Below, in pieces: positions 2,076-15,976 of a stretch of 64,000 bases of DNA. A program made the translations under genes and the position numbers. The notes under the pieces were generated by a model, which worked only from the letters and a program-made list of their open reading frames with translations, had not been told where the DNA came from and did not search any database. The stretch lies in contig NZ_FWFY01000001.1 in assembly GCF_900172345.1 (NCBI RefSeq), forward strand, positions 1-64,000, written 5' to 3'. The DNA comes from Limimaricola soesokkakensis. GTDB taxonomy: Bacteria > Pseudomonadota > Alphaproteobacteria > Rhodobacterales > Rhodobacteraceae. The first letter of the stretch is position 1. Every line of letters begins with the position of its first letter.

Positions 2076-2599
2076 TCGATCGGGGTCGGTTCGCGGGGCT
2101 GGCCGAAGCCGGCATAGGCCGGTCGGGCTAGGATTGGCCATGTCGCATTGGCGCTGTCGCCCCCTATGCCAAGCGCGCCTTTGCCTCCAGATCGGCCAGC
2201 AGCCGGTAGGAGACGCAGTATTTGAAGATGTTGCGGACGTAGCTCGCGGGCTTGCGGTTGGCCGCCTCCTGTATCGCGATCTCGACACTCTCGAACCACG
2301 CATGCGGCTCCAGCTCCATTTCCGCAGCTCGGTGACACGCCCGCTGCGCGCCACCCGGTCCGGCGTCCGGCTCCGGGAGTCGGGGCCTTCATGCATGGGA
2401 ACCGGCCATAAGGAGGAACCGCAAAGCTCGAAATCAGCGCAGAACTGAAAGTCTAAATGCCTGAAAATCGAGCAATACCGCGCCATTGCTGCGCGGGCTG
2501 CTTAATATCTGGGCGATCTATCGTGGCCGCACTGGTCTAGTGCCTCGTTTCGCTCTTTCTGCTCCACTTGGGCTGCCGAAGTCGGGCTACTCTCGTCCC
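2076..2599. other. Long intergenic region with a gene remnant
   Basis: No intact plus-strand gene is convincing here. A short inverted repeat (CCGGC-ATAG-GCCGG, 2109-2122) follows the RTX gene and may be a weak terminator. A short minus-strand remnant lies at 2164-2319. The last 100 bases should hold the promoter of the ATP-grasp operon, but no clear -35/-10 pair was identified. Confidence 0.5.
2164..2319 (-). pseudogene. Possible C-terminal remnant resembling a DnaD/replication-initiator-type helical end
   Basis: A 51-codon frame on the minus strand has a natural-looking amphipathic composition (MELEPHAWFESVEIAIQEAA, then KPASYVRNIFKYC and LLADLEAKARLA), unlike the Arg/Ala-rich shadow frames around it. 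The pattern W-x5-AI-x-EA...PxSYVRNI resembles the C-terminal helix of DnaD-like or phage replication proteins, where a short motif precedes the stop. The frame continues about 24 codons further upstream to a TGA but loses protein-like character. It may be a decayed gene end left by a mobile element, or a real small protein. The identification is tentative. Confidence 0.35.
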
Positions 2600-4024
2600 A
2601 TGAGCAAGAGCAGCAGTTTTGACGAGATGTGGGGGCATGAGACCGTGCTCCGGGATCCGTATGTACCGATTAACGAGTGGTTGCAGCAGGAGGATGCCGG
2701 GCGGTTGCGCCGCAAGGCGCGAGATGCGGAAGATTTGTTCCGTCTCACCGGTATCACGTTCAACGTCTATGGCGCCCGGGACGCGGCCGAGAGGCTGATC
2801 CCCTTCGATATCGTTCCCCGGGTCATCGCAGGGCGCGAATGGGACCGGCTGTCGCGGGGCATCGAGCAGCGGGTGCGCGCGATCAACGCCTTCTTGCACG
2901 ACATCTATCACCGGCAGGAGATCATCCGCGCCGGGCGGGTGCCGATCGAGGCCATCGAGCGCAACGCCGCCTTCCTGCCGCAGATGATCGGGGTCGACCC
3001 GCCCGGCGGGGTCTACACCCATATCGTCGGCACCGATCTGGTGCGCACCGGCGAGGACGAGTTCTACGTGCTCGAGGACAATGCCCGCACGCCCTCGGGG
3101 GTGAGCTACATGCTCGAGAACCGCGAGACCATGCTGCACATGTTCCCCGAGTTGTTCATGAAGACCCGGGTGCGGCCGGTCTCATCCTACCCGGCGATGC
3201 TGCACCGCTCGCTCTGCGCCTGCGCGCCAAACTCGAGCAATGGCCGGCCGGTGGTGGGGGTGATGACGCCGGGCAGCTACAATTCGGCCTATTACGAGCA
3301 CAGCTTCCTCGCCGACAAGATGGGGGTCGAACTGGTCGAGGGGCAGGACCTGCGGGTCGTCGACGGCCGCGTGGCCATGCGGACCACCCAGGGCTACCAG
3401 CCGATCGACGTGCTCTACCGGCGTGTCGATGACGACTGGATCGACCCGCTCAACTTCAATCCGGACAGTGCGCTCGGCGTGCCGGGCATCATGGATGTCT
3501 ACCGCGCCGGCCGGATCACCTTGGCCAACGCCCCCGGCACCGGCATCGCCGATGACAAGGCGATCTATTCCTACATGCCGGAAATCGTCGAGTTCTATAC
3601 CGGCGAGAAGGCACTCTTGAAGAACGTGCCGACCTGGCGCTGCGCCGAGCCCGAGGCGCTGTCCTACGTGCTCGACAACCTGTCCGAGCTGGTGGTCAAG
3701 GAGGTGCACGGCTCCGGCGGCTACGGCATGCTGATCGGCCCGACCGCCTCCAAGAAGGAGCTTTCGGCGTTCCGCGACAAGCTCAAGGCGCGACCCGGCA
3801 ATTACATCGCGCAGCCGACGCTGTCGCTTTCGACCGTGCCGATCTTTACCCGCGCCGGCCTCGCGCCGCGCCATGTCGACCTGCGTCCCTTCGTGCTGGT
3901 CTCGCCCGAAGGCGTGTCGATCACGCCGGGCGGGCTGACCCGCGTGGCGCTCAAGAAGGGGTCGCTGGTCGTCAATTCGAGCCAGGGCGGCGGCACCAAG
4001 GACACCTGGGTGCTCGAACAATGA
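2600..4024 (+). CDS. Circularly permuted type 2 ATP-grasp protein (COG2308)
   Basis: The product is 474 residues, the usual length for this family. The start is the ATG that begins MSKSSSFDEMW; upstream in-frame codons belong to the spacer. Recognisable signatures are YVPINEW near the N-terminus, FNVYGARDAAERLIPFDIVPR, GVDPPGGVYTHI, LEDNARTPSGVSYMLENR, the YRRVDDDWIDPL segment and VKEVHGSGGYGM, a nucleotide-binding loop. ATP-grasp enzymes of this class are predicted amide or peptide ligases that activate a carboxylate with ATP and join it to an amine. It is the first gene of an operon with alpha-E, transglutaminase-like and Anbu genes; its stop overlaps the next start. Family is certain, substrate unknown. 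Confidence 0.95.
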   Translation: MSKSSSFDEMWGHETVLRDPYVPINEWLQQEDAGRLRRKARDAEDLFRLTGITFNVYGARDAAERLIPFDIVPRVIAGREWDRLSRGIEQRVRAINAFLHDIYHRQEIIRAGRVPIEAIERNAAFLPQMIGVDPPGGVYTHIVGTDLVRTGEDEFYVLEDNARTPSGVSYMLENRETMLHMFPELFMKTRVRPVSSYPAMLHRSLCACAPNSSNGRPVVGVMTPGSYNSAYYEHSFLADKMGVELVEGQDLRVVDGRVAMRTTQGYQPIDVLYRRVDDDWIDPLNFNPDSALGVPGIMDVYRAGRITLANAPGTGIADDKAIYSYMPEIVEFYTGEKALLKNVPTWRCAEPEALSYVLDNLSELVVKEVHGSGGYGMLIGPTASKKELSAFRDKLKARPGNYIAQPTLSLSTVPIFTRAGLAPRHVDLRPFVLVSPEGVSITPGGLTRVALKKGSLVVNSSQGGGTKDTWVLEQ

Positions 4025-4965
4025 CGACGCTGGGCAAGACGGCCGGCGGGCTCTACTGGATGTTCCGGCATCTGGAGCGTTCGGAGAACACGGCCCGGAT
4101 GATCGAGGTGGGCCAGCGCATTGCGCTCACCCGGTCGTCGGATGACGACGAATGGGGCAGCATCCTGCAGGCGGCGGCGACACATGCCGGCTATGTCGCC
4201 AAGCATGGCGAGGTGACGCGCGACCTTGCGCTGGACTGGATGCTGCGCGACCCGGACAACCCGTCCTCGGTGCTGTCGGTGGTCAAGGCCGCGCGTGACA
4301 ACGCCCGCGTCGTGCGCACCGCGCTCACCCGCGAGGTCTGGGAAGCGGTGAACGAGGCTTGGATGACGCTTTGCGCCGCGATGCGCCGCAAGGTGCATGA
4401 CCGCGACCTGCAGGACGTGCTGGCACTGATCCGGCAGCGCGCCGCCTTTGTGCGCGGCGCCACACATGGCACGATGCTGCGGAACGACATCTATGATTTC
4501 TGCCGGCTGGGGATGTTCAGCGAACGTGCGGACTGCACCGCGCGCATCCTCGACGTGAAGTACTTCGTGCTGCTGCCCTCCGCGACGGCGGTGGGCTCAC
4601 GGCTCGACGACGTGCAATGGGAGACAATCCTGCGCAGCGTCTCGGGAGTGGGCGCCTTCCAGATGCGCTACGGTCAGCAACTGCGCCCGCGCGAGATCGC
4701 GGAGTTCATCATCCATGACCGCGCCATGCCGCGCAGCCTCGCCTTCTGCGCCCACAAGCTCGAGGAAAACCTCGGTTATCTCGCGGCGGATTACGGCACG
4801 CGCCTGCCCTCACACGAGATCGCCGAGAGGCTGAACCAGAGGCTGCTCGGGCGGTCGATCGACACGATCTTCGAAAACGGGCTGCACGAGTTCCTGATGG
4901 AGGTGCAGCACTGCCTCGCGCATCTGAGCCAGCAGATCGAGATCGATTACAGGTTCTACCGATGA
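4021..4965 (+). CDS. Alpha-E domain protein (DUF403, COG2307)
   Basis: The 314-residue, all-alpha protein starts with an ATG that overlaps the upstream TGA (ATGA), so translation is coupled. Family hallmarks are GLYWMFRHLERSENTARMIE at the start, NPSSVLSVVKAARDNARVVR in the middle and SLAFCAHKLEENL near the end, rich in Arg and Glu placed on helices. Alpha-E proteins are nearly always encoded beside circularly permuted ATP-grasp genes and are proposed to be their partner in a peptide-ligation system; no enzymatic activity has been assigned with confidence. Here it sits second in the operon, 28 bases before the transglutaminase-like gene. Confidence 0.95.
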   Translation: MTTLGKTAGGLYWMFRHLERSENTARMIEVGQRIALTRSSDDDEWGSILQAAATHAGYVAKHGEVTRDLALDWMLRDPDNPSSVLSVVKAARDNARVVRTALTREVWEAVNEAWMTLCAAMRRKVHDRDLQDVLALIRQRAAFVRGATHGTMLRNDIYDFCRLGMFSERADCTARILDVKYFVLLPSATAVGSRLDDVQWETILRSVSGVGAFQMRYGQQLRPREIAEFIIHDRAMPRSLAFCAHKLEENLGYLAADYGTRLPSHEIAERLNQRLLGRSIDTIFENGLHEFLMEVQHCLAHLSQQIEIDYRFYR

Positions 4966-4993
4966 CCCCTCATGCCGTCGCAGGAGCGCACCC

Positions 4994-5809
4994 ATGCGTC
5001 TGAGCATTTCGCACCGCACCACCTACAGCTTCGACGCGCCGGTCGATTACGCGCTGCAGCAGCTGCGGCTGACGCCCAAGCCGGGCGGGGCGCAGCGCGT
5101 GCTGCGCTGGAGCAATACAGTCACCGGCGGTCAGAAAGAGCTGAGCTTCGAGGATCAGCACGCCAACAAGGTCGAGCTCGTCTCGGTCACGCCGGGCGCG
5201 CGAGAGATCAGCGTGCTGTCGGAGGGCGAATTGGAAATCGAAGATAGGGCCGGCGTGCATGGACCGCATGCGGGCTACATGCCGCTCTGGCTGTTCGAGC
5301 GGTCCACGCCGCTGACCCGGCCCGGCGCACGCTGCCGCAAGCTGGTGTCGGGGCTGCGGGCCGGCAACGCGCCGCTGGAGCGGCTGCACACCCTGTCCTC
5401 GGCCGTGGCCGATGCGGTACAATACCAAACCGGAAGCTCGAACGTGGCGACCACCGCCGAGGACGCGCTCGAGGCCGGGGCCGGAGTCTGCCAAGATCAT
5501 GCGCATGTGTTCATCACCTGCGCGCGCCTCATGGCGATCCCGGCGCGCTATGTCTCGGGCTACCTGATGATGGAGGGACAGGTTTCGCAGGAGGCGACGC
5601 ATGCCTGGGCCGAGGCGCATGTGCCCGATCTCGGCTGGGTCGGCTTTGATGTCTCGAACGCGATCTCCCCGGATGCGCGCTACGTGCGCGTGGCGACGGG
5701 GCTGGACTACACCGAGGCAGCGCCGGTAAATGGCTTTCGCTTCGGCACCGCCCGCGAGGAACTCTCGGTCGCGATCGAGGTGCGTCAGGCTGAAACGGAC
5801 TCGCAATGA
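4994..5809 (+). CDS. Transglutaminase-like cysteine peptidase family protein
   Basis: The 271-residue protein begins with an N-terminal beta domain (MRLSISHRTTYSFDAPVDY), typical of bacterial transglutaminase N-terminal regions. The core follows with a full triad: Cys166 in AGVCQDHAH, His203 in THAWAEAHV and Asp219 in GFDVSN. Such proteins cleave or form isopeptide or amide bonds and act in the cytoplasm when, as here, no signal peptide is present. AGGAG lies upstream of the chosen ATG. It overlaps the Anbu gene by four bases. In this operon type it may hydrolyse or transfer the peptide products of the ATP-grasp/alpha-E pair; that role is inferred. Confidence 0.93.
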   Translation: MRLSISHRTTYSFDAPVDYALQQLRLTPKPGGAQRVLRWSNTVTGGQKELSFEDQHANKVELVSVTPGAREISVLSEGELEIEDRAGVHGPHAGYMPLWLFERSTPLTRPGARCRKLVSGLRAGNAPLERLHTLSSAVADAVQYQTGSSNVATTAEDALEAGAGVCQDHAHVFITCARLMAIPARYVSGYLMMEGQVSQEATHAWAEAHVPDLGWVGFDVSNAISPDARYVRVATGLDYTEAAPVNGFRFGTAREELSVAIEVRQAETDSQ

Positions 5810-6537
5810 CCTACTGTGTCGCCCTCAGGCTCGATCGGGGCCTGGTCTTCATGTCGGACACCCGCACCAATGCCGGGGTCGACAACATCTCGAGCTGCCG
5901 CAAGATGTTCAGCTGGTCCGACGGGGAATCCTCGATCACCCTGCTGACGGCCGGCAACCTCGCCACTACCCAAGCGGTAGTCAGCCTGATTAACGAGCGG
6001 CTGAAATCCCCGGGGGAGCGCAGCCCCTCGATCCTCGGTCAGCCTTCGATGTTCGTGGTGGCCCGGATGGTGGGCGACCTGCTCAAGGAGGAGATCGCGC
6101 GCGCAGGCGCCGGGCAGATGAACGCGGATGCAGGCACCTTCGGCGCAACCCTGATCCTCGGGGGCCAAGTGCGCGGCAGCGCGCCGCGGCTGTTCCTGAT
6201 CTACCCGGAGGGCAATTTCATCGAGGCGGGCGACGACATGCCTTGGTTCCAGAGCGGCGAGACCAAGTATGGCCGCCCGATCCTGGTGCGTGCCTTCGAC
6301 CCTGCGATGAGTTTTGCCGCGGCGGTGAAGCTCTTGATGGTCAGCTACGATTCGACCATCAAGGCGAACCTCTCGGTCGGACTGCCGCTTGATCTTCAGA
6401 TCTACGAGACGGACAGCTTTCAGCCCGGCAAGACGCTGCGGATCGAGGCGGACGACCCGCAATACCACGCCATCTCGGAAGGCTGGAGCGAGGCGCTCCG
6501 CGCGGCGTTCGAGCAGCTGCCCGACGTCGAGCTTTAG
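5806..6537 (+). CDS. Anbu (ancestral beta-subunit) proteasome-type peptidase
   Basis: The 243-residue protein begins MTYCVALRLDRG and continues with SDTRTNAGVDNIS, the signature of Anbu/BPH proteins (COG3484). After removal of the first Met, Thr1 becomes the N-terminal nucleophile, with Asp17 and Lys32 matching the catalytic Asp and Lys of proteasome beta subunits. There is no propeptide. Anbu forms open helical rings rather than closed barrels in the structures known for the family. The gene is fourth in the ATP-grasp, alpha-E, transglutaminase operon and starts inside the upstream stop (ATGA). Its natural substrate is unknown; association with the ligase products is inferred from conserved gene order. 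Confidence 0.93.
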   Translation: MTYCVALRLDRGLVFMSDTRTNAGVDNISSCRKMFSWSDGESSITLLTAGNLATTQAVVSLINERLKSPGERSPSILGQPSMFVVARMVGDLLKEEIARAGAGQMNADAGTFGATLILGGQVRGSAPRLFLIYPEGNFIEAGDDMPWFQSGETKYGRPILVRAFDPAMSFAAAVKLLMVSYDSTIKANLSVGLPLDLQIYETDSFQPGKTLRIEADDPQYHAISEGWSEALRAAFEQLPDVEL

Positions 6538-6598
6538 AACGGCGGCTTGACCCGGCTCGAGTGGGGCAGGGTCCAGCACACACCGAGATATAGCAAAA

Positions 6599-6620
6599 TG
6601 GGCCGCCCTTGGGCGGCCCA
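6599..6620 (-). terminator. Terminator between convergent genes
   Basis: TGGGCCGCCC-TT-GGGCGGCCCA is a perfect inverted repeat. Read on the minus strand it is followed by ATTTTGC, so it best serves the minus-strand RTX gene; it may also stop transcripts of the Anbu operon. Confidence 0.75.
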
Positions 6621-6642
6621 TGTCGCGTTGGTACCGAGGCGA

Positions 6643-7935
6643 TCAGATCAGGAAATCGTCGCGATCGATCGCGCCCGCATCGATCCCGAGAAGCGTGATC
6701 TGTGAGTTGCCATAGCTGATCACGGCATCGTCGCCTTGGTTCTCGATGGTCAGATCCTCGAACTCCAGAGACGTCCGGGTGAAGTCGAGCAGGTCCGACC
6801 CGTCCTCGAAATCGGTGATGATATCGTCGCCATCTCTCTGGCTGCGGAACGCGAAGATGTCCGCCCCGTCGCCGCCGGTCAGCACGTCGTTGTGCCGCCC
6901 GCCGTTCAGGATGTCGGCGCCATCACCACCGTCGAGCGTATCGCGTCCCAGATTGCCGAGAAGGTTATCGTCGCCCGCGCCGCCATTCAGCGTGTCACGC
7001 TGCTGGTTGCCGATGAGAATATCGGCGCCGGCCTTGCCGTTCAGCGTGTCGTTGCCTTTGCCGCCGGCAAGAACGTCCGCACCTGCGCCACCGGCCAGAA
7101 GGTCGTCCCCGGTTCCGCCATCCAGCCGGTCATCGCCGGCAAAGCCGCGCAACACGTCGTTATCGGCCCCGCCATCGAGCACGTCGTTGCCCTTGAAGCC
7201 CTTCACGACATCGTCGCCGGCACCGGCATTGAAGACGTCATCCGATGCGCTCAGTCCGAATTTGCCGCTGGCCGAGGCGCGCTGCCCGGCGAGCAGGTCG
7301 AGGGCCTGCTCGAGATCGATCTCCATGATCTCGCCGGCCGCGACCGGCAGGATGCCGACATAGCCATCCTGCTCGCCGTTGATCTCGCCGTCGGTGCCTT
7401 CGCCATAGCCGCCATCGACGTTCTGCCCGTGCAGCACGATCTCGCGCAGCACCAACGGCATCAGGTCCTCCATGTCATACTGCCTGTCAGTGACCGGGCT
7501 TTTCAGATTATCCATGTCGGTCAGGTCGAAGCTCTGGATATAGGAGAGCTGGCCCTGGGAATCGGCCATCGGGCTCATGCCATCGGTACCGGTTAGCGAC
7601 AGCAGGATATCACCATAGGCCGGCACCCCCTCGAGCACTTCGACGAAGCCGTCGCCGTCGGCATCGTCCGGCAGCGTCGGGGTCCGTGAATTGGCGGGGT
7701 TGCCCTCGTCGTCGAACACGCCGTGGATGTGCTGGGCATGGGCCATATCGGGCGTCAGATTTTCGGCCAGGATTGCCACGTTGATATAGGGCGTATCCTC
7801 GGCCTGGCCGAGCGAAACGATGGCGCTGCCATAGACGCCGGAATTGTTCAACGCCGTCAGGTCGACGGCCCAAGTTCCTTCGGAACCTCGCAGGAACGTT
7901 TCAAAGGATCCGTAGGAACTATCAAGATGAGCCAC
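6643..7935 (-). CDS. RTX protein with N-terminal CHRD-like domain
   Basis: The 430-residue protein has no N-terminal signal peptide, as expected for a type I secretion substrate. Residues of about 15-185 look like a CHRD-type beta domain: WAVDLTALNNSGVYGSAIV, a QHIHGVFDDEGN segment with paired His, and LVLREIVLHGQNVD. Residues of about 235-375 are RTX nonapeptides (GGADNDVLRGF, GGTGDDLLAGG). The last 50 residues (ITDFEDGSDLLDFT and similar) are the usual RTX C-terminal secretion region. It is transcribed away from the ebo cluster and ends at a clear terminator. CHRD domains occur in secreted proteins of unknown biochemical function; a surface or biofilm role is a guess. Confidence 0.88.
   Translation of the reverse strand: MAHLDSSYGSFETFLRGSEGTWAVDLTALNNSGVYGSAIVSLGQAEDTPYINVAILAENLTPDMAHAQHIHGVFDDEGNPANSRTPTLPDDADGDGFVEVLEGVPAYGDILLSLTGTDGMSPMADSQGQLSYIQSFDLTDMDNLKSPVTDRQYDMEDLMPLVLREIVLHGQNVDGGYGEGTDGEINGEQDGYVGILPVAAGEIMEIDLEQALDLLAGQRASASGKFGLSASDDVFNAGAGDDVVKGFKGNDVLDGGADNDVLRGFAGDDRLDGGTGDDLLAGGAGADVLAGGKGNDTLNGKAGADILIGNQQRDTLNGGAGDDNLLGNLGRDTLDGGDGADILNGGRHNDVLTGGDGADIFAFRSQRDGDDIITDFEDGSDLLDFTRTSLEFEDLTIENQGDDAVISYGNSQITLLGIDAGAIDRDDFLI
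6855..7230 (-). repeat. RTX nonapeptide repeat array inside the CHRD/RTX gene
   Basis: About fifteen GGxGxDxLx units are encoded back to back on the minus strand, for example GGAGADVLAGGKGNDTLNG. It is a coding repeat for calcium binding. Confidence 0.85.
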
Positions 7936-8356
7936 AGGCTCTCCTCCCTGTTACAAGGTGCGAATAGTTTCGCCACCAGAAGTTGACCCTGCATACACGC
8001 CCGGCGGTCCCGAAAGTTTCATCACATGGCAGTTAGCGGAGTTGATTGGACATTTTTGCTGCGTGGTTCAGGGCGCGGCGGTCGATCAAGGGGCTTGCCG
8101 CTGTAAGAGCGCCAAACTCTTGCAGCCGGACGGACTTTGCCTTGGAGGGCGTCATTCTCAGCCGACCTTCTGCTCTGGCCGAGGAAATAGAGAGGTCGAC
8201 CTCTCAACATTCGCAGACCCTCGACTTCCGTTTCCGCAGTTGCCCCGGTCCTTTCGGACATGCGCAACGAGTCCGCGAAACTTCTTGCTTCGGCGCGGTG
8301 GGCAGTGCCAGCATGAGGCCAGTATCTTCGGTATGAGTGATCGGGAGGGTTGTGTT
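7936..8356. other. Intergenic region upstream of the RTX gene and of eboD
   Basis: This 421-base spacer separates two divergent genes and must hold both promoters. No protein-like frame was recognised, although a frame in phase with eboD stays open through most of it. TTGACC at about 7984 and TTGATT at about 8042 could be -35 elements, but no matching -10 is convincing. GGGAGGG at 8343-8349 is the ribosome binding site for the GTG start at 8357. Confidence 0.4.
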
Positions 8357-9628
8357 GTGGCCTCGATGGATATCTGTGTGCAGGGGCTGCGTGATGGCGT
8401 CCTGCCGCGCCTCGACGGCGCGACCCCGGTGAGGGCCCGGACAGAACGTCCGGCAGAGGTGAGCGATCAGGTGCACTGGCAACGTTTCTCGGTTCCCTTC
8501 GAATACCCGGTGGTCTTCGCCCGCGATATTTTCAACCCTGAGAACCGCGTCCTCGCCAATGCCATCGGCCATGCGGAGCCCGACAAGACCCATCGGTGTC
8601 TCGTCTTCGTCGATAGCGGTGTCGTCGCGGCGCAGCCCACGATCACCGCCCGCATCGCGCAATGGTTCGCGCGTACCAGCGGCGTGAGCCTCGCCGGAGA
8701 AATTGTCATCGTTCCGGGAGGCGAGGCGATCAAGAGGGACGGGACGCATGTCGAGGCCGTACAGCGGGCTGTTTATCGGCATTGTATCGATCGGCATTCC
8801 TGCGTGGTCGCCATTGGCGGCGGCGCGATGCTCGATGCAGTCGGGCTTGGCGCGGCGGTGGCCCATCGCGGCGTAAGGCTGATCCGCGTTCCCACCACGG
8901 TCCTGTCGCAGAACGACTCCGGGGTAGGCGTGAAGAACGCGGTCAATCTCGATGGCTACAAGAACTTCACAGGCACCTTCGCTCCACCATGGGCCGTCGT
9001 GAATGATTTCGACTTCCTCCAGCATTTGCCTCGGCGCGAGCGTATCGCCGGTATCGCCGAAGCAGTGAAAGTCGCGCTGATCCGCGACGGGGGTTTCTTC
9101 GCTTGGCTCGAGGCGAATGCCGACCGTCTGAGGGCATTCGAGCGTGACGCCGAGGAGTGGATGGTCCGGCGCTGCGCGGAACTGCACATGGCGCAGATCG
9201 CCCATGGTGGCGACCCGTTCGAAAGGGGGTCGGCCCGCCCGCTCGATTTCGGTCACTGGGCCGCGCATAAGCTCGAAACGCTGAGCGGGCATACGGTCAA
9301 TCACGGCGAAGCCGTGGCCATCGGCATCGCCCTCGATACCCGCTATTCGGTATTGGCCGGGCTGCTGCCCGCCGGCGCCGAGGAAAGGGTCGCGGCGCTT
9401 CTCGAGCGGTTGGGCTTTACCTTGTTTCATCCCGGGTTGGTTCTGCCCGGAGCGAATGGCCAGCCGGCCCTGCTGGCGGGCCTCGACGAGTTCCGCCAGC
9501 ATCTGGGCGGAGAACTGACCGTGACGCTGCTCGAAGAGCTGGGTTCCGGCATCGAGTTGCATCAAATCGATCCGGATCTCGTACGGCAGGCGCTCGATTG
9601 GCTGGCGCGCCGTGAGGCGCAGGCATGA
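8357..9628 (+). CDS. eboD: EboD-like sugar-phosphate cyclase (3-dehydroquinate synthase superfamily)
   Basis: This NAD-dependent cyclase-fold protein has the Gly-rich AIGGGAMLDAVG loop, RVPTTVLSQNDSGVGVKN and KNFTGTFAPPWAVVND. The metal site has Glu in AEAVKVALI and His in GHWAAHKLE and HTVNHGEAVAIG. It differs from true AroB in the loop sequences and lies among ebo genes, so EboD is the better call; its substrate is not known. The GTG at 8357 is preferred because GGGAGGG lies seven bases upstream; ATGs at 8333 and 8366 are alternatives in frame. With this start it is 423 residues. Its stop overlaps the eboE start (ATGA), and eboD-eboE-eboC form one coupled unit. Confidence 0.88.
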   Translation: MASMDICVQGLRDGVLPRLDGATPVRARTERPAEVSDQVHWQRFSVPFEYPVVFARDIFNPENRVLANAIGHAEPDKTHRCLVFVDSGVVAAQPTITARIAQWFARTSGVSLAGEIVIVPGGEAIKRDGTHVEAVQRAVYRHCIDRHSCVVAIGGGAMLDAVGLGAAVAHRGVRLIRVPTTVLSQNDSGVGVKNAVNLDGYKNFTGTFAPPWAVVNDFDFLQHLPRRERIAGIAEAVKVALIRDGGFFAWLEANADRLRAFERDAEEWMVRRCAELHMAQIAHGGDPFERGSARPLDFGHWAAHKLETLSGHTVNHGEAVAIGIALDTRYSVLAGLLPAGAEERVAALLERLGFTLFHPGLVLPGANGQPALLAGLDEFRQHLGGELTVTLLEELGSGIELHQIDPDLVRQALDWLARREAQA

Positions 9629-10797
9629 AGCAGGAGCTGACCTACTGTCTCAACATCCATCCGACCGAAACCTGGGAGGAGGTGCGCGCGGCCTTGCTCG
9701 GACCTGTTCTGCAGGTGCGCGACGGGATCGCGGGGGATGGGGATTTTCCTGTGGGCCTACGCTTTTCTGGGCAGGCTCTGCACGACCTGCGTGCCACCGA
9801 AGCGCGCGAAGACCTCAAGACCATCCTCAAACGCGAGCGATTGCGGGCCGTCACCGTGAACGGCTTTCCCTATGGCCGTTTTCACGGCACCCGTGTGAAG
9901 GAAGACGTCTATCGTCCGGATTGGCGCGAAGAGGAGCGGCTGGCCTATACCTGCGAGCTGGCCGATCTCATGGCCGAGATCGCGCCCTCCGAGCCGCTGG
10001 TGAGCCTGAGCACCGTGCCGGGCTGTCTGCGCACCCTGTCGGAGGGGCAGGAGGGCGCGGTCGCGGATAACTACCTGCGCGCAGTGGCGCATATGGTGGA
10101 TCTGGAACGGCGGACCGGTGTCCGGGTCGCGCTGGCGATCGAGCCGGAACCAGCCTGCATGTTCGAGACGATCGAGGAAACCGCAGCCTTTTTTCGCGAC
10201 CACTTGCTGTCGGACTCGGCGGCCGAGCGGCTGGCGGCAATGACCGATCTCGAACGCGATGCGGCACGCGCGGCGCTGCCTCGCTATATCGGGCTGTGCT
10301 ACGACGTCTGCCACGCCGCCGTGGAGTTCGAGGATCCGGCCGGAAGCCTCGAGATGCTGCGGCGGGCTGGCGTGCCGGTGCATAAGCTGCAGCTCAGCGC
10401 GGCGCTTCGGGTCGCTGAGGTGACGCCGCAGACGCGTGAGGCCCTGTCGAGTTTCGCCGAGCCCACCTATCTGCACCAGGTGGTCAGCCGTCGTGGCGAC
10501 GGCTCCCTTAAGCGTTTGACGGATCTCCCGGAGGCACTGGCGCGCGGCGCCGAGGCGGATGGCGAGGAATGGCGCGTGCATTTCCACGTCCCGATCTTTC
10601 TAAAGGACCTTGGGGCCTTCGAGAGCACGCGCGATTTCCTCGATGAGATCCTGCGCCTGCATCGCCATCAGCCGATCTCGCCGCATCTGGAAGTCGAGAC
10701 CTATAGCTGGAACGTGCTGCCCGAGCGGCTGCGGCGCGAACGCATGGAGGAGGCTGTGCTGCGCGAGTTGCGCTGGGTGTCGGAGCGGCTGGCATGA
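9625..10797 (+). CDS. eboE: EboE-like TIM-barrel protein (xylose isomerase-like)
   Basis: The 390-residue protein starts MKQELTYCLNIHPTETWEEV, the usual opening of EboE proteins, where the LNIHP segment forms the first barrel strand. Other barrel-strand motifs are AVTVNGFPYGRFHG, LSTVPG, VALAIEPEPACMFE with a likely metal-binding Glu, GLCYDVCHAAVEFEDP with an Asp/His pair, HFHVPIF and LEVETYSWNVLP. This is the sugar-phosphate isomerase/epimerase fold; the actual reaction of EboE has not been defined. The start overlaps the eboD stop and the stop overlaps the eboC start. Confidence 0.9.
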   Translation: MKQELTYCLNIHPTETWEEVRAALLGPVLQVRDGIAGDGDFPVGLRFSGQALHDLRATEAREDLKTILKRERLRAVTVNGFPYGRFHGTRVKEDVYRPDWREEERLAYTCELADLMAEIAPSEPLVSLSTVPGCLRTLSEGQEGAVADNYLRAVAHMVDLERRTGVRVALAIEPEPACMFETIEETAAFFRDHLLSDSAAERLAAMTDLERDAARAALPRYIGLCYDVCHAAVEFEDPAGSLEMLRRAGVPVHKLQLSAALRVAEVTPQTREALSSFAEPTYLHQVVSRRGDGSLKRLTDLPEALARGAEADGEEWRVHFHVPIFLKDLGAFESTRDFLDEILRLHRHQPISPHLEVETYSWNVLPERLRRERMEEAVLRELRWVSERLA

Positions 10798-11645
10798 CGC
10801 GCGTCGCGACCATCCTGCGACTTGGCCGGGTTTCGAACCTGCCGACCGTCTGGACGAACGCGCTTGCCGCCGCGGTGTTGGCTGTCGGGGCGACGCTGCC
10901 CGGCGGGACCGTTCTGGCCACGGCGGCGATCCTCAGCCTGTTCTATATCGGCGGCATGTGGCTGAACGACGCCTTCGACGCCGAAATCGATGCAAGGGAA
11001 CGTAGCACGCGACCCATCCCCGCGGGCGAGATCGGTCGAGTGGCGGTCTTTGCCATCGGAGGTGCGCTGCTGGCGCTTGGGATCGTCGGCGGCTTCGGCT
11101 TCGGCCCGGCTGCAGGAGCGGCGGCTCTGGCACTCGCGGCGACGGTGCTGCTCTATGACTGGCTGCACAAGCGGACGGTGTCGAGCCCGGTCATCATGGG
11201 GGCGACGCGCTTCCTGTGCTATGTCTTCGCCGCCTTGGCGCTCGGGGCGCTGCCTTGGCTGGTGCTGGTCGCAGCGTTCGGTCTCTTTGCCTATGTGGTC
11301 GGCCTGACCTATGCGGCGAAGCAGGAGGCCTATGACCGTCTCGATCGGGCTTGGCCCTTGGCCGTGCTAGCGTTTCCGCTGCTGGTGGCGCTGGTTCTGG
11401 CTTGGGGCAATGCCTTGGCGCTGGCGATCTGCCTCGGCCTCGCGGCACTGATGGCGGTGGCGCTCCGCCGCCTGTTCCGCCGCGCCAAGGGCGACGTGCC
11501 GAAGGCGGTCGTGACGCTGATCGCCGGCATGTCGCTCTATGACGCGGCGCTGTTGGCAGCGGTTGGCGCGCCGGGACTGGCGATCTTGGCAGTGGCGGGG
11601 TGCGGGCTGACCATGCTGCTGCAGCGGATCGTGCCCGGCACCTGA
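10794..11645 (+). CDS. eboC: EboC-like UbiA-family prenyltransferase
   Basis: The 283-residue integral membrane protein has about eight hydrophobic segments. The first Asp-rich motif is NDAFDAEIDARERSTRP, matching the NDxxDxxxD prenyl-diphosphate/magnesium site of UbiA enzymes; the second is YDRLDRAWP in a later cytosolic loop. RVSNLPTVWTNALAA near the N-terminus is also typical. UbiA enzymes transfer an isoprenoid chain to an acceptor inside the membrane. In ebo clusters it is the only clear membrane enzyme and is thought to make or use a lipid-linked intermediate; the acceptor is unknown. It ends five bases before the 3' end of convergent eboF. Confidence 0.92.
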   Translation: MTRVATILRLGRVSNLPTVWTNALAAAVLAVGATLPGGTVLATAAILSLFYIGGMWLNDAFDAEIDARERSTRPIPAGEIGRVAVFAIGGALLALGIVGGFGFGPAAGAAALALAATVLLYDWLHKRTVSSPVIMGATRFLCYVFAALALGALPWLVLVAAFGLFAYVVGLTYAAKQEAYDRLDRAWPLAVLAFPLLVALVLAWGNALALAICLGLAALMAVALRRLFRRAKGDVPKAVVTLIAGMSLYDAALLAAVGAPGLAILAVAGCGLTMLLQRIVPGT

Positions 11646-11650
11646 GACCC

Positions 11651-13036
11651 TCAGTCGAAGACGTGACGCAGGACCAGCGATTTGAAATCGGTGGCCGCGA
11701 CCCGCCCATCGGGTAGCGCGTCCGGCTCCGAGGAAATCACCAGGGGCCCTTCATCGGGATCGTCCGTGATCCGTCCATGCGTCCCCTTCACGAGATGCGT
11801 GGCCGAAGGCGAGATGATGTCCAGAAGCTGCCGGAAGCCCGCCTTGCGCTTTGCCAACTTCATCGCCGCTGTGAGCCTGGGGTGGCGGATCTCGGGATCG
11901 ACGAAGAGCTCGACCGGATCGTAGCCCGGTTTGCGATGGATATCGACGGTGCGGGCGAAGTCTGGCGCCCTGTCCGGGTCGAGCCAGTAGTAATAGCTGA
12001 ACCAGCGATCCGGCTTCGACACCGCGACCAGTTCACCCGAGCGGGGGTGGTCCAGCCCATGCGCGCGCTTGCCCTCGGCATCCCAGACCTGTTCGACCCC
12101 GTCCAGGCTCTCGATCAGGGCCTTCACCTCTCGAATGCGCGCGGCATCCTCTACATGCACATGGGCGATCTGGTGGTCGGCCATGGCGAAGGCGGTACTC
12201 GCGCCGCAATCGAGGGTCTCGCGGCCATGCTCCTCGCGGCGGACCGCAAGAAGGCCGGCCTCTCGCAGGGCACGGTTGATATGAACCGCATCCGTGGCCT
12301 TGGTGATTCCGTATTCCGACACGACGATGATACGCCGCCCGGTCCGGTCTGCCTCGTCGATCAACTCGCCGCACAGCGCGTCGACTTCGTGCAGATCGGC
12401 CCGAAGACGCGGGTGGTCCAGATCCGGGCCGAGCCGCTGCAGGTTGTAGTCGAGATGCGGCAGATAGGTCAGGGTCAAGGTCGGGTCCCGGGTCTGCATC
12501 ACGTGCAGCGTCGCCTTGGCAATCCACTCCGAAGAGGTGATGTCCGCCAGCGGGCCCCAGAACTTGAACAGGGGAAACGGCCCCAGCGCCGCATCCAGTT
12601 CGTCATGCAGTTCCGGCGGGAAGGCATAGTGATCCGGTATCTTGCGGCCATCCGCCGGATACATCGGCCGCGGTGTCGCCGACCAATCGGCGCTGGAGTA
12701 CATGTTGTACCACCAGAACATCTTGGCACAGGTGAAATCTGGGTTCCTCTTGCGCCCAGCTTCCCAGACCTTCTCGCCTTCCACGAGATTGTTGGGCTGC
12801 CGCCAAAGCATGATTTCCCGCAGATCGCGGAAGTACCAGCCATTCGCTACCACGCCGTGATAGGACGGCATGAGCCCGGTGAGAAGCGTTGCCTGTGCCG
12901 TGCAGGTGACGGCGGGCGTCACCGTGTCGAGCGGCCGCAAGGCGCCCCGCTCGGCCAGTTTCTTGAGATGCGGCGTGTCGCGTCCCACCAGATGCGGAGC
13001 GAGGCCGACAACGAGGATCACCAGCGTCTTTTTCAT
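11651..13036 (-). CDS. eboF: EboF-like alkaline phosphatase superfamily protein (nucleotide pyrophosphatase/phosphodiesterase type)
   Basis: The 461-residue protein starts MKKTLVILVVGLAPHLVG, with the first metal-binding strand. VTPAVTCTAQATLLTG contains the catalytic Thr of type I phosphodiesterase/nucleotide pyrophosphatase proteins. Further metal ligands are likely in LPHLDYNLQRLGPD, VVSEYGITKATDAVH and HPRSGELV. No export signal with a cleavage site is clear; the N-terminal hydrophobic strand is part of the fold. It is encoded opposite to the other ebo genes, tail to tail with eboC and head to head with eboA, sharing an 82-base divergent spacer with eboA. The phosphoester it acts on is unknown. 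Confidence 0.9.
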   Translation of the reverse strand: MKKTLVILVVGLAPHLVGRDTPHLKKLAERGALRPLDTVTPAVTCTAQATLLTGLMPSYHGVVANGWYFRDLREIMLWRQPNNLVEGEKVWEAGRKRNPDFTCAKMFWWYNMYSSADWSATPRPMYPADGRKIPDHYAFPPELHDELDAALGPFPLFKFWGPLADITSSEWIAKATLHVMQTRDPTLTLTYLPHLDYNLQRLGPDLDHPRLRADLHEVDALCGELIDEADRTGRRIIVVSEYGITKATDAVHINRALREAGLLAVRREEHGRETLDCGASTAFAMADHQIAHVHVEDAARIREVKALIESLDGVEQVWDAEGKRAHGLDHPRSGELVAVSKPDRWFSYYYWLDPDRAPDFARTVDIHRKPGYDPVELFVDPEIRHPRLTAAMKLAKRKAGFRQLLDIISPSATHLVKGTHGRITDDPDEGPLVISSEPDALPDGRVAATDFKSLVLRHVFD

Positions 13037-13118
13037 GCGAGCACCATGCGGTGCCGGCTAAAACGTTGCAACAGTTCCGGCCTTCTATATCGTGACAGGG
13101 TGGACTGGGAGGGCGTTC

Positions 13119-13973
13119 ATGCCGACAGCGGATGCGGTCCTGAGGGACATCGTACTGACACGTGCAGGAAGCGAAGCAGGGTGGGTCGAAGAGATCCTAG
13201 AAGCGCTTCGAAGGGGGGCGCCCGAGCGCGACCTGCACATTTTCCTTGGGCTGGCGCCCCGACGACTGGGCAAGGCCGATCTGGTACCGACCGCCGCGGA
13301 GCTTGAGGCCGCCGAGGCAGCCCGGCCGGGCTGGCGGATCGATGGTTGGAGCCTTGACGGAGCCGCTCGCGTACTCGCGCTATTGGTGCATGCGGGGCAG
13401 CGGCCATTTGCCGACCGGTTCAAGGATCTGCGCCGGACTTCGGACGTGGCAGAGATGATCGCGCTCTATCGCGGTCTGCCGCTCTATCCCGAACCGGAGA
13501 CGCTGCATTTCGAAGTGGGCGAAGGGCTGCGCTCGAACCTCAAGCCGGTCTTCGAGGCGATCGCCCATGACAATCCCTTTCCCCGAGATCATTTCGACGA
13601 GCACCGTTGGAACCACATGATCCTCAAGGCGCTCTTCGTCGGCAGCCGGCTGGCACCGATCATCGGTCTGGACGAACGCGCCAATTCCGAGCTGGCGCGG
13701 ATCTTGCGCGAATACGCCCATGAACGCTGGGCGGCCGGCCGTACCGTCACGCCGGAGCTGTGGCGCTGCGTCGGGCCCTATGCGCAGGACGAGGCGGCGC
13801 TCTCCGATCTGGAGCGCGCGCTGTCCGAGGGCGGGGCAGGCGCGCGCGGCGCTGCGCTGGCGCTCGCAGCCTCGCCCGCACCCGAGGCGCGACAGCTGCT
13901 GGAGGGCAGGGCCGAGGCCGAGGAGATCGCGGCCGGGCGCCTGGACTGGAATCGCCTGGAGGAGGCCGCCTGA
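13119..13973 (+). CDS. eboA: EboA-domain protein
   Basis: The 284-residue soluble helical protein has no recognisable catalytic motif. Features seen in EboA proteins are RVLALL followed by FADRFKDLRRTSDVAEMIALYRGLPLYP, LRSNLKPVFEAIAHDNPFP, and DEHRWNHMILKALFVGSRLAPIIGLDERAN, which looks like a helical repeat. GGGAGGG five bases upstream supports the chosen ATG. Its stop and the eboB start share one base (TGATG), so the pair is coupled. EboA is required in the known cyanobacterial system but its biochemical role is undefined. Confidence 0.88.
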   Translation: MPTADAVLRDIVLTRAGSEAGWVEEILEALRRGAPERDLHIFLGLAPRRLGKADLVPTAAELEAAEAARPGWRIDGWSLDGAARVLALLVHAGQRPFADRFKDLRRTSDVAEMIALYRGLPLYPEPETLHFEVGEGLRSNLKPVFEAIAHDNPFPRDHFDEHRWNHMILKALFVGSRLAPIIGLDERANSELARILREYAHERWAAGRTVTPELWRCVGPYAQDEAALSDLERALSEGGAGARGAALALAASPAPEARQLLEGRAEAEEIAAGRLDWNRLEEAA

Positions 13974-14893
13974 TGTATATCGACCCGCATGCCCACATGA
14001 TCAGCCGCACCACCGATGATTACGAGGCGATGGCGGCGGCCGGCATCGTGGCGCTGATCGAGCCCGCCTTCTGGACCGGCCAGCCTCGCACCTTCGTCGG
14101 CACCTATGTCGACTACCTGTCTTCGATCGTCGGGTGGGAGCGGTTTCGCGCCGGGCAGTTCGGCATCCGGCACTACTGCACCATCGGGCTCAATTCCAAG
14201 GAGGCCAACAACGAGGAGTTGGCGGAAGGCGTGATGGACTGGCTGCCGCGCTTCGCGCTTAAGGAAGGCGTCGTGGCGATCGGCGAGATCGGCTATGACG
14301 AGCAGACCCCTCTCGAGGACAAGTATTTCCGGGCGCAGCTCGAACTGGCCAAGGAACTGCACCTGCCCGTGATGGTGCACACGCCGCATCGCGACAAGAA
14401 GCGCGGCACCTCCCGTTCGATGGACGTCATCGAGGAGCATGGCCTCGATCCCTCGATGGTGGTGATCGACCACAATAACGAGGAGACCGTAGCAGAGACC
14501 CTGCAGCGCGGCTACTGGGCCGGCTTCTCGATCTATCCCTCGACCAAGATGGGCAACCGTCGGATGGTGGAGCTGCTGAAGCAATATGGTGGCGAGCGGA
14601 TCATCGTCGACAGCGCCTGCGACTGGGGGATCTCCGACCCGCTCGGCGTACCGAAGACCGCGCAGCTGGCTTTGCAAAGCGGTATCCCCGAAGAGACCGT
14701 GCGCAAGGTCTGCTACGGCAACGCGCTCGCTGCCTATGGGCAGAGCGGGCAGATGCACGAGAGTGACTGGCTCGACCCGCCGCAGATCGACCAGCGCACC
14801 CTGTTCAACGACAACTCGATCCTTAGAGGCGGGCGCGAGCCGGTTATCGGGGATACGGCCGGGACGCGACGGGGCGGCCTGATCATCGAGTAA
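13973..14893 (+). CDS. eboB: EboB-like TatD-family metal-dependent hydrolase
   Basis: The 306-residue protein of the amidohydrolase fold begins MYIDPHAHMISRTTDDYEAM, with the HxH metal motif on strand one. Further ligands are likely at AIGEIGYDEQTPLE (Glu), LPVMVHTPHRD (His), MVVIDHNNEETV (His) and IIVDSACDWGISDPL (Asp). The sequence follows the EboB branch rather than DNase TatD. Such enzymes hydrolyse phospho- or amide bonds; the EboB substrate is unknown. It is the last gene of the cluster and is followed by a strong hairpin shared with the convergent dsbA-like gene. Confidence 0.92.
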   Translation: MYIDPHAHMISRTTDDYEAMAAAGIVALIEPAFWTGQPRTFVGTYVDYLSSIVGWERFRAGQFGIRHYCTIGLNSKEANNEELAEGVMDWLPRFALKEGVVAIGEIGYDEQTPLEDKYFRAQLELAKELHLPVMVHTPHRDKKRGTSRSMDVIEEHGLDPSMVVIDHNNEETVAETLQRGYWAGFSIYPSTKMGNRRMVELLKQYGGERIIVDSACDWGISDPLGVPKTAQLALQSGIPEETVRKVCYGNALAAYGQSGQMHESDWLDPPQIDQRTLFNDNSILRGGREPVIGDTAGTRRGGLIIE

Positions 14894-14899
14894 GGCACT

Positions 14900-14917
14900 C
14901 AGACGCTTTCGCGTCTG
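14900..14917. terminator. Bidirectional terminator between eboB and the dsbA-like gene
   Basis: CAGACGC-TTTC-GCGTCTG is a perfect seven-base stem with a four-base loop placed between two convergent stops. There is no strong T tract on either side, so efficiency is uncertain. Confidence 0.6.
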
Positions 14918-14925
14918 GTCCGGGC

Positions 14926-15573
14926 TCAGCCGCGCATTTCGGCCAGTTGCTCCAAGATGCGGGTATAGTTTTCGACCCCTTGGGCGCCGGTCACGAGATG
15001 GCGCTTGTCGAAGATCATCGCCGGCACGCCACGGATGCCTTGGCGCAGCCAATGCGTTTCCGCCGCGCGTACTTCGGCTGCGAAGCGCTGTTCATCCAGC
15101 ACGGCAAGCGCCTCCGTGCGATCGAGGCCGATCTCCCCGGCAATCTCAGCCAGAACGGTCTGGTCGGAAAGATTGCGCCGATGGGTGAAATGGGCCGCGA
15201 AAAGCGCCTGCTTCAGATCATGCATGCGGCCTTGGCTTTCGGCCCAATGCAGCAGCTGGTGAACATCGAACGTATTGTGCATCCGCATATCCTCGGACCA
15301 GCGGAACTCGAAACCGAGTTCGGCGCCGAGATCGGCCATGCGGATGCGACTCTCTTCCGATTGCTCCGGCGTGCTGCCGTATTTCTCCATGATGTGCTCG
15401 CGCATGTTCTGGCCTTCAGCCGCCATGTCGGGATTGAGCTCGAACGGATGCCAGTGAATTTCATGCGCCATGCCGGTCGCCTCGAGGGCACGTGCCAGTT
15501 GGCGGTAGCCAATGACGCACCAAGGGCAGACCACGTCGGAGACGATATCGATACGGAGCGGTTGGGTGGGCAT
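14926..15573 (-). CDS. DsbA/FrnE-family thioredoxin-fold oxidoreductase
   Basis: The 215-residue protein starts MPTQPLRIDIVSDVVCPWC, with the CPWC redox pair right after the first strand. The helical insertion and the RGVPAMIFDKRHLVTGAQG end carry the cis-proline (VP) of the thioredoxin fold. There is no signal peptide, so it is cytosolic, as in the FrnE/2-hydroxychromene-2-carboxylate isomerase branch. AAGGAT lies upstream of the chosen ATG; in-frame sequence further upstream is not protein-like. It probably handles disulfides or glutathione conjugates; no specific partner is suggested by the neighbours. Confidence 0.9.
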   Translation of the reverse strand: MPTQPLRIDIVSDVVCPWCVIGYRQLARALEATGMAHEIHWHPFELNPDMAAEGQNMREHIMEKYGSTPEQSEESRIRMADLGAELGFEFRWSEDMRMHNTFDVHQLLHWAESQGRMHDLKQALFAAHFTHRRNLSDQTVLAEIAGEIGLDRTEALAVLDEQRFAAEVRAAETHWLRQGIRGVPAMIFDKRHLVTGAQGVENYTRILEQLAEMRG

Positions 15574-15976
15574 GTCGGATCCTTGATGGTGTCGCCAGTG
15601 ATAGGCCGCGAAAAGCAAGCGGCACATAGCCGGTGGGAATGGGTCGAAGTCGGCAGTGCCGACGCTGTCACTAGCGCAGATGACAACCTCAGGCCCCGCT
15701 GCAAGAGCGTAGTTGAGCGATCACTCGATATTGAGTTTTGGCGAGCCTCGGTAGGGAAGCTCGCTTGCCTGTCTCAATGCCCCTGCAACGTTTCCTTTCA
15801 TTGGTGATCGCGCCGCGCATGGGCATTTTCGCGACAAACGCTGGCAGGGCTCATCGTTGTGCAGGATGCGTCAACTTTCCGCCCCATTGTTCATTGCATG
15901 TGAAGCGTCAAGTCGGCCGCAATCCGGTCGAGCCAATTCGCAATCATCCTGTCCCGATCCGAGGAGCGTTGGTCAC
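15574..15976. other. Intergenic region with no recognised gene
   Basis: This 403-base divergent spacer lies between the dsbA-like gene and the GGDEF-EAL gene. It must contain both promoters, but no convincing promoter pair, RNA gene or protein remnant was found. GAGGAGCG at 15961-15968 is the ribosome binding site for the ATG at 15977. Confidence 0.45.

Follow-up and report, generated by a model that had tools for sequence, protein, structure and literature searches.

The ebo cluster and its layout

The subject of this analysis is an ebo gene cluster of Limimaricola soesokkakensis, studied in a window of 64,000 nucleotides (the whole stretch analysed, positions 1 to 64,000 of contig NZ_FWFY01000001.1). 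In this Limimaricola-like roseobacter a complete ebo set of six intact open frames occupies positions 8357-14893 (~6.5 kb). Three forward-strand genes come first, each overlapping the next by 4 bp: eboD (8357-9628), encoding a member of the sugar-phosphate-cyclase family that is AroB-like but not AroB; eboE (9625-10797), encoding a xylose-isomerase-like TIM barrel; and eboC (10794-11645), encoding a UbiA-superfamily prenyltransferase of a divergent EboC/SCO3242 type. The gene eboF (11651-13036) lies on the reverse strand and encodes an alkaline-phosphatase-superfamily protein with a predicted altered metal site. The set is completed on the forward strand by eboA (13119-13973), encoding an all-alpha protein, and eboB (13973-14893), encoding a member of the TatD-like metal-dependent hydrolase family, whose corrected start at 13973 overlaps the eboA stop. 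The start codon of eboD is GTG at 8357, with GGGAGGG upstream at 8343-8349, and the start of eboA is most likely the ATG at 13119, as judged by conserved N-termini.

The reversed eboF converges with eboC across 5 bp and diverges from eboA across 82 bp (13037-13118, a spacer defined by the gene starts only). The initial annotation had correctly described eboF as reversed and had counted two transcription units; the layout implies three, namely D-E-C rightward, F leftward and A-B rightward. The 82-bp spacer is the likely position of both putative promoters of eboF and eboA. A simple sigma-70 scan, which says little for this bacterial class, found no sigma-70-like promoter site in 7900-15000.

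The layout is more than a chance arrangement, since it is found in other genomes. Related loci were collected as the best 80 of 275 confirmed loci by EboE similarity, some of them cut by contig ends, and gene presence was scored by tblastn. All six ebo genes were detected in 61 of these 80 loci, and the gene-order comparison proposed in the initial annotation recovered the exact order and orientation D-E-C-F(reversed)-A-B in 46 of them, including Roseobacter relatives and Halomonadaceae, so the reversed eboF represents an old and stable layout. In the nearest named relative, Limimaricola sp. G21655-S1 (EboE 97% identical), the ebo copy has the same layout and is 96-99.7% identical.

The cluster had been put forward as a candidate for an undescribed system, a view that does not survive comparison with the literature: the ebo operon (eboA-F) was named in 2016 by Yurchenko et al., and the cluster, its variable gene order, its reversed genes and the proposal of an isoprenoid-cyclitol product are already contained in that paper (PMC5133447). 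The operons described there resemble the window cluster in grouping the same six families tightly, with orders that vary (including DECABF) and with reversed genes, whereas the window has eboF reversed between eboC and eboA and an EboC that scores far below the cut-off of the curated model. The main text of PMC5133447 does not use the words sorbosone, cytochrome c, TMEM220 or isopentenyl, and in the available parts of that source we found neither the synthase swap, nor the GSDH/cytochrome partner, the isopentenyl diphosphate (IPP) isomerase linkage or the EboF ligand changes described below. What is new here is evidence on what ebo makes; the ebo system itself is already known.

Assignment of the six proteins to families

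Profile matches together with the intact frames agree with the initial assignment of six ebo-type families within 6.5 kb. Two placements named there as refuting it, the cyclase with true AroB and the prenyltransferase with UbiA, MenA or COX10, were not obtained. EboE passed its curated model NF035939 (423 bits, cut-off 250). EboD scored 553 bits with NF004852 (cut-off 333), a model that is itself also named 3-dehydroquinate synthase, and 205.9 bits with the aroB equivalog, below the cut-off of 305. Elsewhere the genome encodes a true AroB (354 bits against the cut-off of 305) and a heme O synthase, which makes EboD and EboC additional members of their families. EboA passed the EboA_domain model (158 bits, cut-off 50) and missed the EboA_family model (211 bits, cut-off 320), EboB matches TatD-type models (PF01026, 65 bits), and EboF matches the PF01663 phosphodiesterase family (215 bits). 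No match to a transporter family was obtained for any of the six proteins in Pfam and NCBIfam family searches.

EboC, recognised by PF01040 (61.5 bits), scored 88 bits with the EboC model (cut-off 250) and 89 bits with the SCO3242 model (cut-off 260); both values are below cut-off, and no other NCBIfam family ranks above these two. Its matches down to E 0.001 include neither the heme O synthase model TIGR01473 nor the UbiA model TIGR01474. The EboC model is also missed by the EboC proteins of ebo clusters in Mycetohabitans (110 bits) and Deinococcus (96 bits) and is passed by that of a member of the Bacteroidota, Aureibacter (342 bits); the curated model seems to be narrow and to cover one branch. 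Since gene content and order fit, the window cluster is classed as ebo despite its EboC falling below cut-off. EboC keeps the first Asp motif, NDxxDxxxD, and at the position of the second Asp motif most aligned EboC proteins have a basic residue, one other residue and Glu.

Structure predictions by AlphaFold2 gave confident models of EboE and EboA (predicted local distance difference test, pLDDT, 94.3 and 96.7, respectively). EboE is a xylose-isomerase-type barrel whose nearest relatives by Foldseek are Art22 isomerase, xylose isomerase, tagatose 3-epimerase and IolI. EboA is predicted to be all-helical, and Foldseek found no significant relative for it in the PDB (best E 0.14); with that value its reading as a tetratricopeptide repeat protein was dropped, a solenoid relation being unproven. 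In EboB, 154 of 306 positions are at least 95% conserved among 63 sequences, the window's included.

Active sites of EboD and EboF

Aligned with the dehydroquinate synthase 6lk2, EboD has Asp297 in place of Asn and His277 in place of Lys, and opposite His382 of EboD the synthase has Val, directly after two Lys. Asp297 and His382 align with the Asp and His of a Streptomyces sedoheptulose-7-phosphate cyclase and of ValA (4p53). We take the positions of Asp297, His277 and His382 to be functionally meaningful active-site positions. EboD also differs from the sedoheptulose-7-phosphate cyclases, for which a 14-residue fingerprint is mentioned in PMC4426668, in having His304 where they have Pro, and Trp301 is private to EboD. 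Glucose 6-phosphate is the substrate of inositol-3-phosphate synthase and a less likely candidate for EboD; sedoheptulose 7-phosphate appears to be the better guess, and it had been proposed as the substrate in 2016 (PMC5133447).

The metal site of EboF was compared with that of the nucleotide pyrophosphatase 2gsn in an alignment of two segments, the first of 18.3 bits and the second, weak, of 4.0 bits. Relative to 2gsn, EboF has Val10 for Asp, Gln200 for His, Glu241 for Asp and Tyr242 for His, the replaced residues being, as we assume, metal ligands in that enzyme; the Thr44 nucleophile and Asp196 are kept, and the last His is His420, assigned by motif. By this alignment, four of the six metal ligands expected for the family appear to have been replaced in EboF. 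The changes are conserved: among 68 EboF sequences Gln200, Glu241, Tyr242 and Asp196 were found in all 68, Val10 in 67 (with one gap) and Thr44 in 67. In a second set of 14 diverse EboF proteins from Bacteroidota, Deinococcota, Actinomycetota, haloarchaea, Gemmatimonadota and Proteobacteria, Val10, Glu241 and Tyr242 were invariant and Gln200 was present in 11, with Leu in three haloarchaea. His60, His194, Asp287, His288, His292 and His367 are invariant in both sets, which contain no cyanobacterial EboF. EboF is thus unlikely to be a canonical two-metal phosphodiesterase, and the altered metal site is a warning against its database name.

Alternative ring-forming enzymes in ebo clusters

Evidence that bears on the product comes from the ring-forming step. 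Searching plasmid records with EboF by tblastn gave 53 matching records, 51 of which were taken as true EboF (35-80% identity); the remaining two (25-26% identity) were taken as different phosphodiesterases. EboD matched 115 plasmid records, with at least 80% of its length covered in 17. One of the 17 is a Streptomyces aroB (32% identity); the other 16 have 43-60% identity and consist of Gloeothece and 15 EboF records, all 15 with the two genes no more than 6.5 kb apart. Inositol-3-phosphate synthase, for which the gene beside a Streptomyces EboF served as the query, matched 44 plasmid records; it is present in 32 of the 51 EboF records, always within 6.4 kb of EboF. In sum, the 51 EboF records divide into 32 with the synthase, 15 with EboD, none found to have both and four with neither, the last four being Haladaptatus, Streptomyces fungicidicus (with a match at the record edge), NBC_01340 (with a partial match) and NBC_01562. 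Partial EboD matches at 33-35% identity occur in at least six of the 32 synthase records, at least 75 kb from EboF, which is what AroB-family genes would be expected to give.

The swap spans actinobacteria, haloarchaea and one gemmatimonad. In annotated maps of Streptomyces the synthase stands with EboA, EboB, EboE, EboF and a prenyltransferase; by annotation, these actinobacterial SCO3242-type clusters share that gene content with the window and differ from it in that inositol-3-phosphate synthase and one more TIM barrel occupy the slot of EboD. Haloarchaeal maps place the synthase with TatD-, UbiA- and TIM-barrel genes and EboF, and in Gemmatirosa it adjoins tblastn matches to EboB, EboE, EboF and an EboC-like protein. 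The TIM barrel of Haladaptatus scored 24 bits with the EboE model versus 70 bits for other isomerases, and its UbiA protein scored 202 bits with the EboC model, below cut-off. Among the haloarchaeal plasmids, four ebo-like clusters (L100, L130, L132 and L133) have no annotated EboA or EboD.

The synthase assignment was confirmed with Pfam families PF01658 and PF07994 in all three proteins tested. Inositol-3-phosphate synthase and EboD have unrelated folds, yet both families make cyclitols from sugar phosphates. We read the synthase as a non-orthologous replacement of EboD, and the swap as the strongest sequence evidence presented here that ebo needs a cyclitol. No report of this swap was found in the literature, among the matches listed.

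Taxonomic distribution and local history

EboE was found in 2 of 8 genomes of the genus, 6 of 394 of the family and 11 of 385 of the class, the window's own genome being counted each time. In the EboE tree the window groups with Limimaricola and Tranquillimonas (Shimodaira-Hasegawa-like approximate likelihood ratio test, SH-aLRT, 100), and Salinicola and its relatives form their own clade of 19 (SH-aLRT 98). EboE is over cut-off in 10 of 178 myxococcal genomes (Myxococcota), one of which was the chosen centre of the sample; in 8 of the 10 corresponding stretches (10.9-19.9 kb) no other ebo gene was found, and EboE alone was rejected as an ebo marker.

Upstream of the cluster, a block compared from 4021 onwards is common to three genus genomes that are devoid of EboE (G001, G003 and G005), and the similarity ends at 6521-6537. 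In G003 this block is separated by 37 kb from the RTX block and by 70 kb from the downstream block. No single junction can therefore be named, and a clean empty site in sister genomes was discarded. The region 2486-6537 contains transglutaminase and proteasome-type peptidase genes in a row with two further genes, presumably circularly permuted ATP-grasp-like and alpha-E-like.

RTX calcium-binding repeat proteins are encoded at 6643-7935, adjoining eboD, and at 27-2075, the latter with a malectin domain. Partly similar RTX proteins occur near eboD in three of the related stretches (L052, L101 and L050), a kind of similarity that repeats make easy. The gene at 6643-7935 was rejected as a part of ebo, the region 6597-8028 having matches at 82-88% in G002, G003 and G004, all without EboE. 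The FrnE/DsbA gene at 14926-15627 was likewise set aside, being found only in the Limimaricola sp. G21655-S1 locus among the loci searched; DsbA-like genes are reported inside some cyanobacterial ebo operons (PMC5133447).

A dehydrogenase and other recurrent neighbours

Clustering of neighbouring genes identified GSDa, a PF07995 dehydrogenase that is probably secreted, its N-terminus being signal-peptide-like as judged by eye, in company with a small c-type cytochrome. Each of the two is present in 32 of the 80 loci, and they occur together in 30. At the single threshold used (E 1e-60), the class sample of 385 genomes contains GSDa in 9 of 11 genomes with EboE and in none of 374 without (Fisher p ~1e-16, without phylogenetic correction), the distance to EboE being at most 6.5 kb in eight of the nine and 67 kb in one. 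Among the class genomes with EboE, only the window's own and G680 have no GSDa. The family sample of 394 genomes gave GSDa in six, namely 5 of 6 with EboE and 1 of 388 others. Of the five, one is the genome from which the query was taken (100%) and another has a relative at 38% close to the end of a contig, which makes the strict count 4 of 6. Both samples partly overlap with the 80 loci. A whole-genome search of the 48 ebo genomes with no GSDa found near the cluster gave a match in eight, either nearby or elsewhere in the genome, seven of them at 64-79% identity. The GSDa pairing is thus a property of the wider ebo family and not of the window locus.

The His and Arg-Asn motifs, which we take to be those expected of enzymes dependent on pyrroloquinoline quinone (PQQ), are present in 49 PF07995-type frames, although the frame filter itself demanded much of them. 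A selenocysteine reading of TGA in GSDa matches was abandoned, TGA being the terminal stop in all three cases inspected. Among the papers on ebo that were listed, sorbosone dehydrogenase was found only in PMC6282210, where L-sorbosone dehydrogenase is mentioned solely as a periplasmic marker. The ebo-like cluster of Natronococcus is followed by a GSDH-cupredoxin protein annotated as a PQQ-dependent sugar dehydrogenase.

Isoprenoid supply and membrane functions are represented among the neighbours as well. Ebo is accompanied by an IPP isomerase gene, of type 1 or type 2, in 9 of the 80 loci, compared with a chance expectation of ~0.4 loci that assumes one gene per 4-Mb genome and 20 kb viewed and ignores relatedness; four of the nine were tested and all four exceed NCBIfam cut-offs. 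In the class sample the isomerase is found in 7 of 10 loci, two loci apparently being L068 and L071. TMEM220-type genes occur in 34 and VTT-type genes in 22 of the 80 loci. A side observation in L102 (1357-4107 and 15575-17621) concerns a plasmid of Ketogulonicigenium vulgare Y25, typed as conjugative, on which ebo is accompanied by a pair of Gfo/Idh/MocA oxidoreductases, one further TIM barrel, a c-type cytochrome and a DUF7133-domain dehydrogenase.

Interpretation of the cluster product

The direct results are gene content and its conservation, the two cyclases that exclude each other on plasmids, the co-occurrence of partners and the EboF residues, and it is from these that we infer every reaction in the following scheme. 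With moderate confidence we propose that the minimal six-gene ebo cluster of the window makes a membrane-anchored isoprenoid-cyclitol that is faced or moved to the periplasm. The cyclitol part of the proposal is supported by the swap and by the difference between EboD and AroB, the isoprenoid part by the IPP isomerase neighbours, and the periplasmic part by GSDa and the c-type cytochrome. EboD would form a cyclitol by closing a sugar phosphate, probably sedoheptulose 7-phosphate, into a ring; EboE and perhaps EboB would rearrange the cyclitol, and EboC, in the inner membrane, would then join it to a prenyl diphosphate. EboA may be a helical accessory protein, as its predicted fold suggests, and EboF would act on a phosphate-bearing intermediate by a chemistry unlike that of canonical two-metal phosphodiesterases. 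The lipid would then face the periplasm, where in many relatives, and not in the window, a PQQ-type dehydrogenase and a c-type cytochrome may oxidise it or the substrate that it carries.

Several observations weigh against this proposal. No ebo metabolite is known, and in the available parts of PMC5133447 and PMC6282210 none is named, in agreement with the initial annotation, which had described the small-molecule product as unidentified. The swap was scored on plasmid records only, which are dominated by related Streptomyces, and does not amount to 32 independent events. Inositol-3-phosphate synthase yields a phosphorylated C6 ring and the sugar phosphate cyclases yield a ring without the phosphate, so the two cluster types need not give the same compound. 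The second Asp motif was not seen in EboC and is present in a UbiA-type protein of the same genome. The dehydrogenase is also an imperfect companion: a close GSDa copy is present in 39 of the 80 ebo genomes and none in 41, two of the nine class genomes with both genes contain, apart from ebo, another and more divergent copy (42-45%), and one family genome devoid of EboE (G386) has a GSDa-type gene (47%). GSDa was not found in the window's own genome, where the only two PF07995 proteins are both distant and on other contigs, and the partner c-type cytochrome was not found in the window; the cluster product may therefore stay unoxidised there or go to another enzyme. Finally, the one enzyme assay that was found for an EboC homologue concerns Ubi-297, which farnesylates quinolines in vitro (PMC9235831), and the words inositol and cyclitol are absent from the main text of that paper.

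An unlikely alternative is that ebo is a dedicated translocation machine: a complex of EboA, EboB and EboC would take small molecules such as the scytonemin monomer over the inner membrane, with the enzymes serving only to build a lipid carrier for them. Its basis is Nostoc punctiforme, whose cluster resembles that of the window in its eboA, B, C, E and F homologues and its periplasmic connection: all five single ebo deletions keep the scytonemin monomer in the cytoplasm, and an EboCAB complex with a cyclitol-lipid carrier was proposed by the authors (PMC6282210, mBio 2018). The initial statement that ebo moves a scytonemin precursor to the periplasm agrees with that paper. A role in making a cofactor for ScyE is disfavoured by the same source, in which the monomer of ebo mutants is cytoplasmic whereas that of the scyE mutant is in both compartments. 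Probably secreted partners recur, namely GSDa with cytochrome c and a ScyD/ScyE-family protein beside one Streptomyces cluster, and the one VTT-domain gene tested has the undecaprenyl-phosphate transporter UptA as its closest family (36.5 bits, cut-off 250). On the other hand, none of the six Ebo proteins falls in a transporter family, a VTT gene was not found in the window, and the Nostoc cluster serves scytonemin, whereas no scytonemin-type gene was seen beside the window cluster. The initial annotation had noted this absence, and it holds for the flanking genes at 4994-15627 and 27-2075, the rest of the window lying outside the scan. As described in PMC6282210, a full set of ebo genes also lies within the Pseudomonas fluorescens NZI7 EDB cluster (Burlinson et al. 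2013), whose insertion mutants turn edible to C. elegans. The annotated ScyD/ScyE-family protein (L134, 1-972) lies directly upstream of a synthase-type ebo cluster of Streptomyces sp. NBC_00663.

We regard it as improbable that the acceptor prenylated by EboC is aromatic, a quinoline for example, and the product a meroterpenoid, with EboD providing an aromatic or shikimate-like ring. Ubi-297, the EboC of marine Flavobacteria, resembles the window protein as a UbiA-like enzyme of an ebo cluster with the first Asp motif kept, and in vitro it transfers farnesyl to 8-hydroxyquinoline-2-carboxylic acid and quinaldic acid, 6 of the 14 aromatic acceptors tested having given products (PMC9235831). 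The acceptors reported in the available parts of that source, however, are all aromatic. The other-genus Bacteroidota EboC, that of Aureibacter, passes the EboC cut-off (342 bits), whereas the window EboC fails it (88 bits). VioB-like proteins adjoin ebo in Aureibacter and Mycetohabitans and eboB-eboD in Gloeothece, VioB being an enzyme that acts on tryptophan derivatives in violacein synthesis. Since inositol-3-phosphate synthase takes the place of EboD in other clusters, an aromatic ring is unlikely to come from that branch, and EboD is unlike dehydroquinate synthase at the aligned active-site positions. The VioB-like genes form a split pair beside ebo genes in a member of the Bacteroidota (L103, 859-3919), a betaproteobacterium (L105, 1208-4226) and a cyanobacterial plasmid (L127, 9897-13178); in L103 a weak VioB match (28.9 bits) stands with a ferritin-like protein of PF12902, and L105 and L127 contain homologues.

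It is very unlikely that this lineage carries the cluster as a non-functional or cryptic island, gained and then kept by chance without its oxidising partner. The presence of EboE in two of eight genus genomes, the end of the shared upstream block at 6521-6537 and the missing GSDa and cytochrome might suggest this, but the six frames are intact and tightly overlapping, the Limimaricola sp. G21655-S1 copy is nearly identical with the same layout, and partner-less clusters of this layout persist in Salinicola and its relatives.

Implications

The isoprenoid-cyclitol proposal can be extended, tentatively, beyond the window. Ebo could be a widespread modular pathway of bacteria and haloarchaea for a prenyl-cyclitol lipid, with EboD and the synthase as swappable ring-formers, and the lipid might be the substrate, or the anchor of the substrate, of extracytoplasmic beta-propeller oxidoreductases. 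The latter would be GSDa with cytochrome c in Proteobacteria, the GSDH-cupredoxin fusion in Natronococcus and ScyD/ScyE-type proteins elsewhere, and we hold this assignment possible only jointly with the modular pathway and as doubtful as it. The near-exclusive pairing of ebo and GSDa in the alphaproteobacterial sample names a downstream enzyme.

The question of what ebo makes dates from 2016 and concerns cyanobacteria, Bacteroidetes, proteobacteria and algal plastids alike. The window presents an ordinary, partner-less example of the cluster, in a host group that is probably culturable. The exchange of EboD for inositol-3-phosphate synthase, should it extend beyond plasmids, points experimenters to a cyclitol. 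If the modular pathway is real, ebo would form the inner part of a system for oxidation in the periplasm and would not be an accessory of scytonemin synthesis.

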